Below, piece by piece: positions 4,299-41,032 of a stretch of 41,032 nucleotides of DNA. Positions within the stretch are counted from its first letter, which is position 1. Each line of letters opens with the position of its first letter. The DNA lies in the IMG/VR virus record IMGVR_UViG_3300035670_000515, positions 1 to 41,032 of that record; one strand, 5' to 3'. Position numbers and translations under genes: made by a program. The stretch comes from a virus. The notes beneath the pieces were generated by a model that did no database searches, was not told where the DNA came from, and was given only the letters and a program-made list of their open reading frames with translations.

Positions 4299-6428
4299 AT
4301 GTCTATGGTGGGAAATGAATTACAAAAAACTATCAAGGCTTTCAAGGAGTTAAAGCTACCGATAGTTAGAACAAAAAACAAAGCTCCAATTGTGAACGCT
4401 TGGCAAAAATTAGCAAGCAACCCCGATGGTTGGTCTGGCAATCTACAAACTGCGACCGAGGCTGGGTTTGTGATCACAGCTGATATTGTTGTGGTTGATG
4501 TAGACCCTAGAAATTTTAATGAAGGCGTAGACAGTTTGGCAGAATTAAGCAAAGCTATTGATTTTGATTTAGAAGCAAACGCAAAATTTTCTACAAGAAC
4601 AGCAAGCGGTGGATTACATTTATACTACAAGAAAAAATCCGACATAAAATTTCCAAATGAATCCGACAAATTCAAAGGCGTTGAATTTAAGCAGATGGGA
4701 CAGCAAGTGCTTATTCCAAATTCTATATTGCCAGACGGTAGAAATTATCAATTAATCAACGCCAATCTTGAGCAACTGCTTGATATTCCGCAAAAGTTCT
4801 ATGAAGTAATCGGGACAAAGTCAGCAAGCAAAGCTATTAACACTGGCTCTGGTTTCAAAAACCATACAACAGATATATTAAGATTAAGACAATTGCTTGA
4901 AAAAACACCACCCGCAAATGAGGGTGAGAATGGAGACAAAGCGACCTACAATGTTTGTTGCCTTGGTAAAGATTACGGCTTGAGTCCAGATGTATTTTTT
5001 GAATTGCTTTGTGAGTGGAACGAAAGATGCAGTCCACCTTGGCAATTAGAAGACTTGAGAACAAAAATGTTAAATGCTTATAGCTACAGCCATAACAAAG
5101 CTGGCTCACATTCCGTAGAAGCGATGTTTGATAATATAGAGCAAAGCTTCCTATCTCCAGAAGACGCAAAGACGCAAGAAGAAGCATTGATTGATTGGCA
5201 GAATGAATTGCAAGTAAATAAAAATGGAGGTTATAAAACCACACTTAAAAACGCCGTCCTGTTTATGAAGCATGACGAACACTTAAAAGGTAAAATTGCT
5301 TTCAATGAATTTTCTGGTGATAAGGTTTGGTTAGAGCCTGCGTATTGGCACAATACTAAAATGAATAGCTACCTCCCGAATGGCAGAATATGGACTGACA
5401 CTGATGCAATCAAGACAAGATATATATTCAACAACTACAATTTTGATGTTGGCACAAATCTCATTTACGAAGCAGTAACAGAATTATCAACATCAAATAA
5501 CTACCATCCAGTTAAAGAATGGCTTGAAAAAAATTCTAAATGGGATGGCACCAAAAGACTTGATACATTTTTCACAAAATATTGTGGAGCGGATGACAAT
5601 GTATATAGCAAAGAAGTGGCAAGAAAAATGTTTTGTGCAATTGTTGCAAGAGTATTTGACCCGGGCTGTAAGTTTGATTACTTGCCTATTTTTGTTGGTA
5701 AGCAAGGCATCGGTAAATCCACCCTATTAAAAATTTTATCAATACATCCCTCTTGGTTTTGCGATAACATAGGCGACATCACGAACGCAAAAGAAGTAAT
5801 ACCACAAACAAGAGGTAAGCTTATTGTTGAATGGCAAGAGCTAGCTTTGTTTAGCAAGATTGATATTAACCATAGCAAAAGCTTTTTATCTACTTCTGTT
5901 GACCGTGTGCGTGAAGCATATCATAGAGAAGCAAAAGATTATCCAAGACAGTTTATAGTAATAGCAACAACCAATCAAGATAAGTTCTTGCTTGACGAAA
6001 CTGGTAATAGGCGTATGCTACCGATTGAATTAAGAGATATTGATACAACGGCAGTTGCGGAAATATTAACGCAGCTATACGCCGAGGCTTTAGAGCTATA
6101 TAGAAAAGGTGAGAAACTTTATATTACGGATAGATACGCATTAGAAATTGCAGAGCAAATCCAATCAGACAGATTCAAGAATGACGAAATCGAAGAAACA
6201 ATTATTGAATGGTTAGATAATATTTCAGACGACCTCAAGCATATTTGCACCAAAGAAAAATTGCAGGTCAATGATGTTATCATCCATGGTTTAAAAGAAT
6301 CACCTACAAAGACAAGAGGATTAGCAAACCGGGTGTCAAATATATTGCGTAGATTAGGTTATCAAAGACAATCTTATCGTATGGATGGCAAGATAAAACA
6401 AGGGTTTGTGAAAAAGTTTAGTTTATGA
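4299..6428 (+). CDS. Bifunctional primase-polymerase / VirE-type helicase
   Basis: A 709-residue replication protein. The N-terminal third looks like a PrimPol (bifunctional DNA primase/polymerase) domain: VVVDVDPRN around residues 64-72 supplies catalytic acidic residues, followed by SGGLHLYY and VEFK...QQVLIPNS. The C-terminal half matches the VirE/D5-type P-loop helicase family: Walker A GKQGIGKST around 467-475, then VEWQELALF, and an ATTNQDKFLLDETGNRRMLPIEL sensor/arginine-finger stretch. It should prime and unwind DNA at the fork, serving the family A polymerase at 11705. Its last four bases (ATGA) overlap the start of the transporter gene, showing translational coupling. Confidence 0.9.
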   Translation: MSMVGNELQKTIKAFKELKLPIVRTKNKAPIVNAWQKLASNPDGWSGNLQTATEAGFVITADIVVVDVDPRNFNEGVDSLAELSKAIDFDLEANAKFSTRTASGGLHLYYKKKSDIKFPNESDKFKGVEFKQMGQQVLIPNSILPDGRNYQLINANLEQLLDIPQKFYEVIGTKSASKAINTGSGFKNHTTDILRLRQLLEKTPPANEGENGDKATYNVCCLGKDYGLSPDVFFELLCEWNERCSPPWQLEDLRTKMLNAYSYSHNKAGSHSVEAMFDNIEQSFLSPEDAKTQEEALIDWQNELQVNKNGGYKTTLKNAVLFMKHDEHLKGKIAFNEFSGDKVWLEPAYWHNTKMNSYLPNGRIWTDTDAIKTRYIFNNYNFDVGTNLIYEAVTELSTSNNYHPVKEWLEKNSKWDGTKRLDTFFTKYCGADDNVYSKEVARKMFCAIVARVFDPGCKFDYLPIFVGKQGIGKSTLLKILSIHPSWFCDNIGDITNAKEVIPQTRGKLIVEWQELALFSKIDINHSKSFLSTSVDRVREAYHREAKDYPRQFIVIATTNQDKFLLDETGNRRMLPIELRDIDTTAVAEILTQLYAEALELYRKGEKLYITDRYALEIAEQIQSDRFKNDEIEETIIEWLDNISDDLKHICTKEKLQVNDVIIHGLKESPTKTRGLANRVSNILRRLGYQRQSYRMDGKIKQGFVKKFSL

Positions 6429-7363
6429 TTTTATATCTCATTCAATATTTATCCGATTTATGTGCTTCTTTTTCTTATGTCGTAGCAAAAAAATTCTATC
6501 AAAATGTTTTTTATTCAACAACAGAAATGTTTGCTTACTGCAATATCTATTTGTTAATTTTGATGTTATGTATAAACCCGATTTTAAAGAATAGATATAA
6601 CTTTAATCTTTTAAATCTTAAAGACTATCTTAAAAACAAAACAATTATTTATGTAACATTATTAAGTGTTTTGACTTCATATATAAAAACCATTTTACTC
6701 AGCAATCTGTTTAATGTATCACAACTTACTTTGCGTAGTTATTCAATCATGTGTCCTTTCATAACACTTGGATTATGCCATATCTTTTTAAAAGACCAAA
6801 AACTAAATAAATCATTTTTATTTGCCTTCCTAATCTGTTTTGCAGGGTTTTTTCTTTTCAATTCCAATAGCCCGCTTGCGTTCGGATTCAGCATCACACT
6901 CATTGCCTATGTTATCTTTAATGGATATTCTGATTACAAACTCAAGGCTATATCACACAAAAGAGGCTTGGAAATGATGCTATTCGATAATGTAATGTTC
7001 TTGTTTGTGTCAAGCACTGTTTTTATTCTGGCATCATTTAATCAAGACTTCACAAAATCCGTTTTTGGAGTTGAGCAATTTGCTATATCAAAACTATTTA
7101 ATACCCAAAACATTATTCCTGTTTTTGCTCTTGCAGTTCTATCTTTCTTTGCTCATAATTTTAAAATGCTTTCCTATAAGGCAAAACATATAGCAGGCAT
7201 AATTATTATAGGAATATTTTTTAAATCATTCAATAGTATTCTTATGACTTACATTGAACATGATATAATACCAACAATGACACAGTCAATAGGAATAGTC
7301 ATTATGTGTATAGGATTAAGTTTTTTTATGTATAAAAATTATGCAAAAAACAAAAAATTTTAA
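6425..7363 (+). CDS. DMT/EamA-like membrane transporter (cargo gene)
   Basis: A 312-residue protein almost entirely made of hydrophobic helices (about nine or ten), the size and layout of drug/metabolite transporter superfamily (EamA-type) permeases. The stretch SYSIMCPFITLGLCHIFLKDQKLNKSFLFAFLICFAGFFLF resembles the EamA pattern at the end of the first half ('P-(F/I)..LL..LFL.E......G..LI..GV.L'). The substrate cannot be told. The gene sits between the primase and SNF2 helicase genes, overlaps the primase stop by ATGA, and its base composition looks even more AT-rich than its neighbours, suggesting acquisition from a host. It could move a nutrient, or alter the membrane to block other phages. 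Fold confidence is moderate; function is inference. Confidence 0.7.
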   Translation: MILYLIQYLSDLCASFSYVVAKKFYQNVFYSTTEMFAYCNIYLLILMLCINPILKNRYNFNLLNLKDYLKNKTIIYVTLLSVLTSYIKTILLSNLFNVSQLTLRSYSIMCPFITLGLCHIFLKDQKLNKSFLFAFLICFAGFFLFNSNSPLAFGFSITLIAYVIFNGYSDYKLKAISHKRGLEMMLFDNVMFLFVSSTVFILASFNQDFTKSVFGVEQFAISKLFNTQNIIPVFALAVLSFFAHNFKMLSYKAKHIAGIIIIGIFFKSFNSILMTYIEHDIIPTMTQSIGIVIMCIGLSFFMYKNYAKNKKF

Positions 7364-7367
7364 ATAT

Positions 7368-7562
7368 ATGAAAATAATGCTTGACAATAAAAAACAATAT
7401 ATGTATATAATAAATAAGTTAGAGATGGAAAGCCACTTGACCGAACGCAAAGTAATAGAAAACCTAGCGTTTGCGAATGTGCAAGTATATAAAACGCAAG
7501 TAGGTTTCAATGCCGAAGTCTCTAACGATAAAAATAATTTGTGGGAATTATGGGTAAGTTAA
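7368..7562 (+). CDS. Small hypothetical protein, 64 aa (start uncertain)
   Basis: Unrecognised small protein between the transporter and helicase genes. Starts at 7341, 7368, 7374, 7398 and 7425 are in frame. I list 7368 (context AAATATATGAAAATAATG, five bases after the transporter stop). However, a promoter at 7381-7409 lies inside this version, so transcripts from it would use ATG 7425 and give a 45-residue product beginning MESHLTERKVIENLAF. The C-terminus overlaps the helicase start by 13 bases, consistent with coupling. Confidence 0.5.
   Translation: MKIMLDNKKQYMYIINKLEMESHLTERKVIENLAFANVQVYKTQVGFNAEVSNDKNNLWELWVS
7381..7409 (+). promoter_or_regulatory. Sigma70-like promoter for the helicase-polymerase genes
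   Basis: TTGACA (7381-7386), 17 bases, then TATATA (7404-7409) preceded by ATG, a TG-extended -10; TATAAT at 7406-7411 is an alternative. The block AATAATGCTTGACAATAA is repeated exactly around 38551 upstream of the early genes, which argues for a conserved signal rather than chance. Confidence 0.6.
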
Positions 7563-9118
7563 AAAAAATAAGAGATAGGTTTTATTTCCTAGCAGAACAT
7601 GAACACGAGCGTTCGCTTGTGAAATTCAAATGGGATGCTGATAATAAAGCGTTCTATCTTGATGACTATGTTAAAGCTAATAAGATTAAAGAATATGCAA
7701 CTGACGAAGCTACTAAAAAATATTTTGAATATTTATCTAGCAACAATATAGGCTCTTACGGACAAGAACCAATAGAAAAAATGAGGCAGGTTGATGGGGT
7801 GTTTCCATACCAAGCAAGAGGTGTCCAAGAAATAACAATGAGATTGCACCAATATAAATGTGCGTTGCTTGCAGATGAGCAAGGTCTCGGTAAGACAATT
7901 CAAATGGCTAAACTAATCGGAGATGTATTTACCAGTTCAGTATTAAGCGGCGAAGGCGGTATAAAGATTTTAATTGTATGCCCAGCATCGTTGAAATTAA
8001 ACTGGAAAAAAGAACTGTTAGAATGGTGCGAAGCTGTAGAAAGAACTTTAGACATCCAAGTTATAACCTCATCTAAAGATTGGATTAATCCAGATGCAAG
8101 AATAGTGATTGTGAATTACGACCTATTAACAAAAGAGCATGTTCAAAGTGAAATAAAGAAAGCAAGATTTTATATGTGTATATGCGACGAAGCCCACTAT
8201 CTTAAGAATGCTAGAGCATCAAGAACTAAAGCGGCTGCTAAGATTATGAAAGACATACAATACAATATCGCATTGACCGGAACACCTATATTGAATAAAC
8301 CTATCGAGTTGTATTCGCTGTTGAAATGTTTGAAAGCGACTGACATCTTGAAACCTTATGATACATTTAGACCATTTGCCTTTAGATACTGCAATGCTTT
8401 TGATGGCACTTGGGGATTTGATGCTAGCGGGCATAGCAATCTTGACGAACTTAATTTTAGACTACGCTCAACAGTTATGGTTCGTAGAGAAAAGAAAGAA
8501 GTGTTATCACAACTACCCGATAAGAGTTATCAGATTATACCTTTGGAAGCGGATAAAAAATCGAAAGAGATTTGCGAAAGCTTGAGCAAGTTAAACCTAA
8601 AACAACTGGAAGAGAAACCAGAATTGGGGTCTGTTGGAGAGATTGCGAAATTAAGACATGAACTTGCATTGACAAAGCTTGATGATTGTATCATACATAT
8701 TAAGGATGTGTTGGAAGATAAACAAAAGTTAGTTGTGTTCGCACATCATAAAGCCGTGATAGAAAAAATTGCGGAAGCATTAAAAGAATTTTGCCCTGTT
8801 GTATTTGATGGTAGCACATCAATGACCAACAAGAATAAGGCGGTTGAGTCGTTTCAAAACGATGAGGCTTGTCGTGTTTTCATTGGGCAGATACAATCCG
8901 CCGGAGTTGGTATCACATTAACGGCGGCGGATACAGTGGTGTTTGTTGAGTCTTCTTGGGTTCCTGGTGAAGTCGAGCAGGCGGTAGATAGATGCCATCG
9001 TATTGGGCAAAAGAATAATGTTCTAGCCCAATTCCTAACAGTAAGTGGCAGCATAGACGAAGTCATGTTGCATTCTATTGTGAAGAAAAAAAGTGTGATA
9101 AACCGTGTTATGAAATGA
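7550..9118 (+). CDS. SNF2-type DEAH-box helicase/translocase
   Basis: A 522-residue superfamily 2 ATPase. Motif I ADEQGLGKT lies around residues 108-116, motif II DEAH around 213-216, motif III is LTGTPILNKP, and motif VI VDRCHRIGQ is around 478-487, the SNF2/Rad54-like signature set. Phage members remodel or translocate on DNA and probably assist replication restart or recombination with the nearby DUF2800 and ssDNA-binding proteins. I use ATG 7550 (MGKLKKIRDRF); a GTG at 7541 is also in frame. It overlaps the preceding small gene by 13 bases, and 16 bases separate it from the next gene. Confidence 0.9.
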   Translation: MGKLKKIRDRFYFLAEHEHERSLVKFKWDADNKAFYLDDYVKANKIKEYATDEATKKYFEYLSSNNIGSYGQEPIEKMRQVDGVFPYQARGVQEITMRLHQYKCALLADEQGLGKTIQMAKLIGDVFTSSVLSGEGGIKILIVCPASLKLNWKKELLEWCEAVERTLDIQVITSSKDWINPDARIVIVNYDLLTKEHVQSEIKKARFYMCICDEAHYLKNARASRTKAAAKIMKDIQYNIALTGTPILNKPIELYSLLKCLKATDILKPYDTFRPFAFRYCNAFDGTWGFDASGHSNLDELNFRLRSTVMVRREKKEVLSQLPDKSYQIIPLEADKKSKEICESLSKLNLKQLEEKPELGSVGEIAKLRHELALTKLDDCIIHIKDVLEDKQKLVVFAHHKAVIEKIAEALKEFCPVVFDGSTSMTNKNKAVESFQNDEACRVFIGQIQSAGVGITLTAADTVVFVESSWVPGEVEQAVDRCHRIGQKNNVLAQFLTVSGSIDEVMLHSIVKKKSVINRVMK

Positions 9119-13688: not shown

Positions 13689-14018
13689 ATGAGTATAGAA
13701 AAAGAAAGTAGAACCTATAATGAGATAGGAAAAATCCGAAATGGTCGTCAGCAGATGCACGGTGCCGCTAAAGTTAATTTCGAAATGATAGCGAAGCTGT
13801 GGTCAGCATATACTGGAGCTGTAATATCTGCGGAGGATGTAGGATTTATGATGTCGATGTTAAAAGCTTCCCGGTATAAAGGCGGTGATAAACATAACTT
13901 TGATAATTTTGTGGATGCAGCTAATTATATTGCTCTTGCTGGAGATATGTCTAATCCATATATAGATAAGCCTATAACGCAAGAAGAAGATAGACTAAAT
14001 GAAGACATGTTTAAATAA
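13689..14018 (+). CDS. DUF6378-like conserved phage protein, 109 aa
   Basis: The sequence NFEMIAKLWSAYTGAVISAEDVGFMMSMLKASRY followed by DNFVDAANYIALAGDM fits the small phage family I know as DUF6378 (NF..IA.LWS.Y.G..I...DV..MM.LLK.AR...DN.VDAAGYAAL). Function is unknown; members usually sit in replication modules, as here between polymerase and resolvase genes. It may relate to nucleotide metabolism or DNA modification, but nothing in the sequence decides that. Confidence 0.8.
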   Translation: MSIEKESRTYNEIGKIRNGRQQMHGAAKVNFEMIAKLWSAYTGAVISAEDVGFMMSMLKASRYKGGDKHNFDNFVDAANYIALAGDMSNPYIDKPITQEEDRLNEDMFK

Positions 14019-15903: not shown

Positions 15904-16257
15904 TTATTCTCTAAATTTTAATTGTTTTAGTTTTCTTTTTGGAGGATTCTCCATATTCTGTTCATACATAATACCGACTGTTGCTTCTAATCTCACAACG
16001 CTTTCGGTTAATTCTTGTGTGGTGGATTGTAATTTATTTATTGTGTGGTTAAAATGCCCGAAGATAAATGACAGCATAAATGCTATGATGGTTACAAAAC
16101 CACCAGACATTGCCGCTATTGGTTTCCAATATCCTGCCATAACTTCTTTACAAGTCTTCTGCGTCCAAGTCTTAAATTTATATTCAAACTCCTTGCTATC
16201 AATGTACTTGCCGATAACTCGCATCAATTTTAATTCTTCGTCATCATCCATAGTCAT
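15904..16257 (-). CDS. One-pass membrane protein with coiled coil, lysis region
   Basis: Starting at MTMDDDEELKLM (ATG 16257; ATG 16251 also possible) the product is about 117 residues: an acidic/basic N-terminal half, one membrane helix (about ISGGFVTIIAFMLSFIFGHF), and a coiled-coil stretch (INKLQSTTQELTESVVRLEATVGIMYEQ), then a basic tail. An open upstream extension to 16308 overlaps the preceding gene and is less likely. Its place between endolysin and an amidase-like membrane protein suggests a holin or lysis accessory. Confidence 0.65.
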   Translation of the reverse strand: MTMDDDEELKLMRVIGKYIDSKEFEYKFKTWTQKTCKEVMAGYWKPIAAMSGGFVTIIAFMLSFIFGHFNHTINKLQSTTQELTESVVRLEATVGIMYEQNMENPPKRKLKQLKFRE

Positions 16258-16267
16258 AGTAAAACAC

Positions 16268-16969
16268 CTATATACTCTCGTTACCTTTGAAACAACTGAA
16301 AGTAGCAAAACAATTATTTTTCAATGACCATTTGATACCAACAAGTTTTCTTGCCTCTTCAATATTTACTATATCAATCTTCCTAAAAGTCAACTTATTT
16401 GTGAGTTCAGCATCTCTTTCTACCACCACACCCCTCTTGTAAAGGAATTCCCGGTCGCCTATGATTAGGGAGCAGTGTCCGTAGGGTGCTGTAAGCAAAG
16501 CACAGAGTGAGCCTGTGATAGAGTGTGGTCGCTTGTATGCTAAGTAGCAATCACCTGCTGAATATAAATCAGATATAGGATGTAAGCTTTCTACCACATA
16601 GCGATATAGGTATGGTATTAAGAACATCACAAAGAAAATCAATGTGATAAAATAATATTCTGGATGTAGAAATACAATGAGATATTGTAGGAATGAGCAA
16701 GTGTTAAATATAACCACAGCTAATAATATTGCTCGTAGGTTATGTCGTTTCCTATCGCAGAGAATAAACGATATTGTTGGGAGTAGCACGCCTTCTAGCA
16801 TTTGCACAATGTTGTATGCAAACCATGCAGAGTCCTCAGTAAGTAATCTAAAACTAACTAGGGTATTTCCAAACTTGGAAAGAATTATTAGGGTCAGTAA
16901 TGCCGTCCCGAAGTTGAATAAGACTTGCCCTTTTCTTAGGAGTTTGTGTTGGATTTTTTGCGGCTTCAT
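16268..16969 (-). CDS. Membrane-anchored permuted papain-like (YiiX/LRAT-type) protein
   Basis: A 233-residue protein with four hydrophobic helices in residues 15-121, then a soluble domain. The domain reads SAGDCYLAYKRPHSITGSL, then PYGHCSLIIGDREFLY (His165), and ends with KNNCFATFS (Cys220). The order His-first, Cys-last matches the circularly permuted NlpC/P60 (YiiX/LRAT) fold, whose members are peptidases, amidases or acyltransferases. Here it could trim peptidoglycan or modify membrane lipids at lysis. The active-site reading is by eye. Its first 116 bases overlap the gene ending at 16854 in another frame. Confidence 0.7.
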   Translation of the reverse strand: MKPQKIQHKLLRKGQVLFNFGTALLTLIILSKFGNTLVSFRLLTEDSAWFAYNIVQMLEGVLLPTISFILCDRKRHNLRAILLAVVIFNTCSFLQYLIVFLHPEYYFITLIFFVMFLIPYLYRYVVESLHPISDLYSAGDCYLAYKRPHSITGSLCALLTAPYGHCSLIIGDREFLYKRGVVVERDAELTNKLTFRKIDIVNIEEARKLVGIKWSLKNNCFATFSCFKGNESI

Positions 16970-39064: not shown

Positions 39065-39673
39065 ATGTTTGATTTTAATTCAAGTTTAAAGGAATTTTTT
39101 GATCCTTACGAAGACAGTTTTGACGCAAGGGACTTGTGCAAATCATTGGTTGTTTATGCAAATCAATTTTATAATTACTACAAAAGTGGTGATTGTGAAA
39201 TTGAGCTTAAAAAAGAAATGAAAGCCAAAGCCCGTAAGTATAAATTGCGTTTTATCGCAGATTGTAAAAAAGAAATTATAAAATATTTCAATTCTTATCC
39301 AAAATGCAACGACCTCAAAAAAGATTTCAAAGACGCTTGCAAAGAAATTCGCCATGAAAATTGGGACGAATTATTCCTGGTTTTAGATTGGATAAAAGAC
39401 AATTGGGGATGGAAGGGTAGCGAACATTATTTTAAGTATTTTGTGAAGTTTAGTGAAAATGAGCCGACAATGGTTCATGAGTTTGGTTTTGAAGATTATG
39501 CACGAGACCTTGGCGAAAATTGCTATTTAGACGATATTCGCAGGGACAATGGACACAACCCTATTCTTGACTTTATTGACTGGGAAGCCTGGGTGGATTT
39601 TGTCAAAAATGACTATACCGAAGTAAGCAACCCACTTAATGAAAGCCGTTGTGTTTATTATATAAGTCATTAA
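39065..39673 (+). CDS. Candidate ArdA-like antirestriction protein, 202 aa
   Basis: The full gene starts at ATG 39065 (the frame extends to 39026 but that overlaps the upstream stop). It has an N-terminal Lys/Asp-rich helical region, a middle RHENWDELFLVLDWIKDNWGW, and an acidic end FGFEDYARDLGENCYLDDI...DFIDWEAWVDFVKNDYTEV that resembles the ArdA C-terminal layout ('Y.DWEAWARDL..DYT.V'). ArdA proteins mimic DNA and block type I restriction. Homology is by eye only and could be fortuitous. Confidence 0.6.
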   Translation: MFDFNSSLKEFFDPYEDSFDARDLCKSLVVYANQFYNYYKSGDCEIELKKEMKAKARKYKLRFIADCKKEIIKYFNSYPKCNDLKKDFKDACKEIRHENWDELFLVLDWIKDNWGWKGSEHYFKYFVKFSENEPTMVHEFGFEDYARDLGENCYLDDIRRDNGHNPILDFIDWEAWVDFVKNDYTEVSNPLNESRCVYYISH

Positions 39674-39678
39674 TATTT

Positions 39679-39744
39679 ATGTATATGAAAAAAGTTCATA
39701 ATGTTACAAGAAGGGTTTTAGTTTATAGTTTTATAGTTTTATAG
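39679..39744 (+). CDS. Mini-ORF, 21 residues (second copy)
   Basis: Second copy of the 400-465 frame with TATGTATATGAAAAAA start context; see that entry for reasons and doubts. Confidence 0.3.
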   Translation: MYMKKVHNVTRRVLVYSFIVL

Positions 39745-39748
39745 TTTT

Positions 39749-40060
39749 ATGGGTTCAATATCAAAAGGTTTAAAAACAAAACAGAATGGGAAAGTCTGCG
39801 TTTTTGAATGTAATGCGGAACACGAAAATAGCAAATATGTTGCTATAAGTACAGCAGAAGTAAGAACGGGAATCAATAACAACTACAAAGAGTTTAAGAA
39901 GCACGCAATGGAAACAAGAGAGCTTTATGATTTTGTAAAAAATTTAGATGAAAAGAACGCTTATATTAGAAACTTTATAAGATTATATGAAGAAGGTAAA
40001 ACTTACGAAGCTTCGGAATATTTAGACTATGAAGGGATGAAAAAGCGATATAAATTTTAG
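39749..40060 (+). CDS. Hypothetical early protein, 103 aa (second copy)
   Basis: Identical to the gene at 470-781, preceded by the same TTTATAGT repeats. A soluble, charged early protein of unknown function; not a separate paralogue. Confidence 0.7.
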   Translation: MGSISKGLKTKQNGKVCVFECNAEHENSKYVAISTAEVRTGINNNYKEFKKHAMETRELYDFVKNLDEKNAYIRNFIRLYEEGKTYEASEYLDYEGMKKRYKF

Positions 40061-40083
40061 TTATTATTATTATTTTATTTGTT

Positions 40084-40446
40084 ATGTATATGAAAAAAAA
40101 AGGTTACAATAAACAAAGAATAAAATTCGCGTTTATTTTTGATGATAGGTTCAAATACGATAAAAATGGCAAAAAACTTGGATTTGCTGATGAAGCAGAG
40201 AAGCACTCAATCAATGAATTAAAACATTTTGCAGAAAATGCTAAACAAAGATTAGAAAATGATGTGTATTTTATAGATAATATTTCAGATGATATGCAAA
40301 TATATGATTTAAGACATATTGATTTTGGTGCAACTCACCAATATAGAGCACAAGTAATTATAAGACCGTATAGTAAAAAAGCTGCAGAAGTTTATCACCA
40401 TATAAACAAATACTATCAAAGGTGTAGTTATATTTTAATTAATTAA
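40084..40446 (+). CDS. Hypothetical early protein, 120 aa (second copy)
   Basis: Identical to 805-1167; alternative start at 40090. Unknown function. Confidence 0.7.
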   Translation: MYMKKKGYNKQRIKFAFIFDDRFKYDKNGKKLGFADEAEKHSINELKHFAENAKQRLENDVYFIDNISDDMQIYDLRHIDFGATHQYRAQVIIRPYSKKAAEVYHHINKYYQRCSYILIN

Positions 40447-40470
40447 TTAGTTTGTTTGTTTGTTTAGTTT

Positions 40471-40560
40471 ATGATTGAAGTTTTGAAATTTGTAGGTGTG
40501 TTTTTAGCGCTTGGGTTTGTGGTGCATATAATATGCAAATATGATGCACGCGATAAATAG
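40471..40560 (+). CDS. Small membrane peptide, 29 aa (second copy)
   Basis: Identical to 1192-1281: one hydrophobic helix and a charged tail, after a GTTT repeat. Confidence 0.5.
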   Translation: MIEVLKFVGVFLALGFVVHIICKYDARDK

Positions 40561-40576
40561 TTTTTTAGTTAAATAT

Positions 40577-41032
40577 ATGAAAAAAGATTATAGTTTTTTA
40601 AATAAAGTGGTTGTGTTTGATAATCAAGGCAAGACTTTAGATAGGTATACAATTGTTTTTCAAGACGGAAGTAATGCAAGCAGTAGTACACACCCCACAA
40701 GCCCTAATGGATTTTATCAACGCGGCGAGGGTATAAATTACACGCCCCTTGATTTTTATGATGGGGAGCGTTGCCATTTAACTGACAAAGAGGATATAAA
40801 AGCTTATAATAAAGTTAATAAGCACCTTGGAAAATACAAGACTTTTAATGCAATGAAGCGGTTACCAAAGCAAGTATTAGATTGTATAAAAGAAGATGTT
40901 GAGGTTGTTGATGTTTGTGAGGCAATAGCAAATGAATATTATTGCAGTCCACGACCAAAAATAACAGAGGCTTTTTTAAGAGAAGAGCTTGCGTTCGGTG
41001 ATAAGCAAATCGAGATTGCGAAAAATTATTGT
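40577..41032 (+). CDS. Conserved phage hypothetical protein, cut by window end
   Basis: Second copy of the gene at 1298-1771, truncated by the window end after 152 codons. It carries the only mismatch seen in the redundancy: GCA (Ala) here versus GAA (Glu) in the first copy. Confidence 0.7.
   Translation, partial: MKKDYSFLNKVVVFDNQGKTLDRYTIVFQDGSNASSSTHPTSPNGFYQRGEGINYTPLDFYDGERCHLTDKEDIKAYNKVNKHLGKYKTFNAMKRLPKQVLDCIKEDVEVVDVCEAIANEYYCSPRPKITEAFLREELAFGDKQIEIAKNYC

Follow-up and report, generated by a model that had tools for sequence, protein, structure and literature searches.

The question raised by this locus is why a phage should carry, immediately behind the primase gene of its replication operon, a gene whose product resembles a metabolite transporter, and how far that resemblance holds. 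The window, that is the whole stretch of 41,032 nucleotides analysed here (IMG/VR record IMGVR_UViG_3300035670_000515), consists of a genome of 39,279 bases followed by a 1,753-base terminal direct overlap (positions 1-1753 and 39280-41032) with one mismatch (position 1650, A/C), and the size of 39 kb given in the preliminary description is therefore right once the overlap is subtracted. Such an overlap suggests that the genome in this record is complete and either circularly permuted or terminally redundant. The mismatch at 1650 probably conceals the overlap from tests that look for exact end repeats.

The description of this phage as T7-like turned out to be loose. Its large terminase is closest to that of Pelagibacter phage EXVC031P (44%), followed by those of Vibrio phage VA-RY-3, Cronobacter phage Ss1 and Burkholderia phage BcepC6B (40-44% identity overall), and its replication genes are of the Prim-Pol/VapE, SNF2 and PolA types. 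A search with PF00940 for a T7-type single-subunit RNA polymerase gave no match, though its controls were also silent, and no tyrosine integrase was found in the genome in a search whose controls did work. Two further genes of the record deserve mention in their own right. A four-helix protein encoded at 16268-16969 (minus strand), overlapping the ORF at 15904-16308, has a homologue at L006:3528-4217 (minus strand), no match in Pfam or PHROG and the most atypical codon use among the genes tested (z -4.2); its C-terminal motifs PYGHCSLI and NNCF recall, in our reading, permuted NlpC/P60 (YiiX-like) hydrolases. In the replication operon, a 109-residue protein (13689-14018, plus strand) matches PHROGs labelled 'phosphofructokinase', a label that looks misannotated given the length and setting of the protein.

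The permease gene itself (6425-7363, plus strand) is present exactly as first claimed, as an intact frame of 312 codons, and its ATG (6425-6427) shares the letters TG with the TGA stop of the primase gene (6426-6428), which confirms the ATGA overlap between the two. At 27% GC, a frame of this length would stay open by chance with a probability that we estimate from base composition at about 1e-12. The gene has a GC content of 27.3%, where the window as a whole has 35.7%, and it is not alone in this, as at least one further early gene is equally low. Its synonymous codon choice matches that of the phage core genes (z +0.6), so that codon use gives no sign of a recent foreign origin. Nothing resembling a Shine-Dalgarno stretch is evident at the ATGA overlap, and other genes of this phage are likewise without one.

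The encoded protein had been read as a transporter of the DMT/EamA type, and profile searches bear this out as remote homology but do not support formal family membership. EamA (PF00892) is the best Pfam match, with an E value of 0.0075 and 17 bits against a curated cut-off of 28.2 bits; the alignment joins residues 8-146 to positions 8-134 of the 135 in the model and covers the first repeat, and six locally shuffled versions of the protein matched no Pfam family at all. The permease was not picked up by a six-frame family search either, and it had no match in PHROGs, NCBIfam or the PDB. A comparison by hhalign with 14 aligned bacterial DMTs gave a score of 41.5 (P 1.8e-5) over residues 104-306, with TM4 to TM10 in register (TM4-5 and the second repeat). 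Among 300 shuffle controls (150 class shuffles and 150 local shuffles, the latter keeping hydropathy) the maxima were 22.3 and 29.8, respectively, and nine non-DMT membrane ORFs did not exceed 19.1, whereas six DMTs held out of the alignment scored 63-138, above the permease. Between them, the Pfam match in the first repeat and the hhalign match from TM4 to TM10 extend the profile similarity over both five-helix repeats.

The predicted topology agrees with this. Hydropathy yields the ten hydrophobic helical segments that had been claimed, and since lysine and arginine residues number 15 on the predicted inside against 4 on the predicted outside, both ends of the protein are predicted to be cytoplasmic. 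Ten TM helices and cytoplasmic ends are what is expected of a DMT carrier, here as a prediction from hydropathy and charges. An AF2 run on the single sequence, without an alignment, gave no usable model (pLDDT 45.8), and a Foldseek search of the PDB with this low-confidence model returned nothing below E 0.001. We conclude from these sequence comparisons that the permease is a remote homologue of the DMT carriers, without filing it as a formal member of PF00892.

The surroundings of the gene place it inside the phage genome and exclude a stretch of host DNA at the margin, as a phage primase and an SNF2 gene lie on its two sides. The upstream gene (4299-6428, plus strand), whose stop overlaps the permease start, was correctly called a primase, since it encodes a Prim-Pol and VapE-like primase-helicase (PF05272, E 6e-70; PF09250, E 6e-16). 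Behind the permease come a short ORF (7368-7562, plus strand; about 64 codons from the ATG at 7368, with a longer reading from 7341), the SNF2-type helicase (7550-9118, plus strand), which forms the right border of the permease slot, and then genes for a DUF2800-like protein, a DUF2815-like protein, a PolA-type polymerase and a RuvC-like nuclease, the names DUF2800, DUF2815 and PolA being our own reading of the sequences. A promoter-like TTGACA-N19-TATAAT (7381-7411, plus strand) is the sole exact pair of these hexamers in the window, where 0.24 would be expected by chance. A spacer of 19 is longer than usual for promoter hexamers.

Relatives with the same slot behind the primase were sought through the SNF2, TerL and Pol proteins, and the only close one found was IMGVR_UViG_3300027193_000001, a sister phage referred to here as G001. 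Its operon is collinear with that of the window on both sides of the slot (primase 57%, SNF2 70%, DUF2800 66% and DUF2815 58% identical), as is its polymerase, which is 82% identical over its C-terminal part, and its SNF2 start agrees with the one at 7550. However, the gap between primase and SNF2 measures 295 bp in G001 against 1,121 in the window; the permease is absent from that gap and from G001, nor was a counterpart of the short ORF at 7368-7562 found there. The G001 slot holds instead a 46-codon ORF which likewise begins at the primase stop with an ATGA. Thus, the permease is present in one of two close genomes, with a single relative for comparison, and because the collinear relative has a 295-bp gap without it, the gene represents either an accessory gain in the window or a loss in G001, two histories that cannot be told apart with two genomes. 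A promoter-like site precedes SNF2 in both slots (TTGACA-19-TATAAT at 7381 in the window, TTGACA-16-TATACT in G001), so the permease sits at the distal end of the primase unit, where DNA can be inserted without necessarily affecting the genes that follow. Among 113 scanned loci, no comparable ten-helix ORF was seen except the window's own.

The search for a source was extended to cellular genomes. No close homologue of the permease was found in viral contigs, genome contigs, phages or plasmids, and neither the scan of genome contigs nor 946 sampled genomes (385 from the class of a Novosphingobium MAG, 369 from the class of a gammaproteobacterial MAG and 192 from the phylum of a Halobacteriovorax MAG) contained a credible homologue that could be recognised as a donor. 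The protein search of the 946 genomes returned four marginal pieces and nothing else; we treat these as chance because the two inspected lie in an ORF that we read as apolipoprotein N-acyltransferase-like and in an interrupted frame. Bacterial DMT baits run against the phage collection mostly hit records resembling pieces of bacterial chromosome (RarD in Salmonella and Listeria), and for this reason we have no clear phage DMT for comparison. AGRM01000003.1, AFYI01000004.1 and OR845793.1, for example, are filed as phage, carry RarD-like genes and resemble such chromosome pieces.

Taking these data together, the gene was probably acquired as an accessory one, behind the primase, and probably codes for a DMT/EamA-type permease of the inner membrane that moves a small metabolite during the copying of phage DNA. 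It would be translated off the primase message through ATGA stop-start coupling, in the replication phase, and the product, a ten-helix carrier, would be inserted into the inner membrane of the host, taking its substrate in or out while the DNA is copied. No metabolic partner gene that might hint at this substrate was recognised among the genes examined. A role as O-antigen flippase was set aside because no glycosyltransferase neighbours were recognised.

It is also conceivable, if unlikely, that the protein serves superinfection exclusion, stopping the entry of competing phage DNA, with the carrier fold as a mere scaffold. An accessory, membrane-bound product of a single gene without recognised metabolic partners would suit such a role, and exclusion proteins are often membrane proteins. 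However, those known are mostly small, unlike ten-helix carriers, the remote homology points to transporters, and as no integrase was found there is no sign of a lysogen needing protection. Similarly improbable is that the gene is neutral or decaying cargo of host origin that brings the phage no gain: its presence in one of the two close relatives, its lack of a conserved partner, its very diverged sequence and its GC content of 27% in a genome of 36% would fit, but the frame is intact, codon use is like that of the phage core and the junction with the primase stop is neat. We regard as rather doubtful a more specific version of the transport hypothesis, in which a phage-specific DMT branch, whose co-translation with the primase would fix the ratio of transport to replication proteins, would supply or clear a small molecule limiting phage DNA synthesis. 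Finally, the resemblance to DMTs might be one of composition in a polytopic membrane protein unrelated to them. This would accord with the Pfam score below cut-off, the failure to find a close homologue and the lack of a confident structure, but is unlikely given that the hhalign score exceeds all composition- and hydropathy-preserving shuffles and the other membrane ORFs, that two methods match complementary repeats and that the predicted topology agrees. If the favoured reading of a carrier acting during replication is true, some metabolite would seem to be limiting for this phage; as things stand, the permease is one uncharacterised accessory gene.

Compared with the bacterial ten-TM permeases of the EamA family (RarD and YddG types), the window permease is alike in length, in its ten predicted TM helices, in its N-in/C-in charges and in profile similarity over both repeats, but it falls below the Pfam cut-off and sits in a phage replication operon. 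None of the sampled DMTs is a close relative, the best giving marginal local matches. The podoviruses EXVC031P, VA-RY-3, Ss1 and BcepC6B share a similar terminase, whereas no record in the phage collection matches the permease. Our literature searches found one precedent, a DMT permease named on a viral contig (VC-20) of chromium-stressed soil and described together with lysogenic phages that carry metal-resistance genes (PMC8240259); in contrast to that case, no integrase was found in the window phage and no detoxification gene was recognised. Moreover, two PHROG families resemble bacterial DMTs, phrog_17492 matching 11 of the 14 (best E 2e-48) and phrog_18638 six of them (best E 2e-20), but the window permease matches neither. 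Both are still listed under 'unknown function', an annotation that could be updated once their members have been checked not to be host DNA. The preliminary description was thus justified in calling such a gene unusual as phage cargo, though it is of a known kind. DMT-like phage proteins already existed, and to these the permease adds, as judged by profile comparison, a new and very diverged one; it is rare for a metabolite carrier to be recognised in a small phage, and this protein shows a reason, namely divergence beyond the curated cut-offs.
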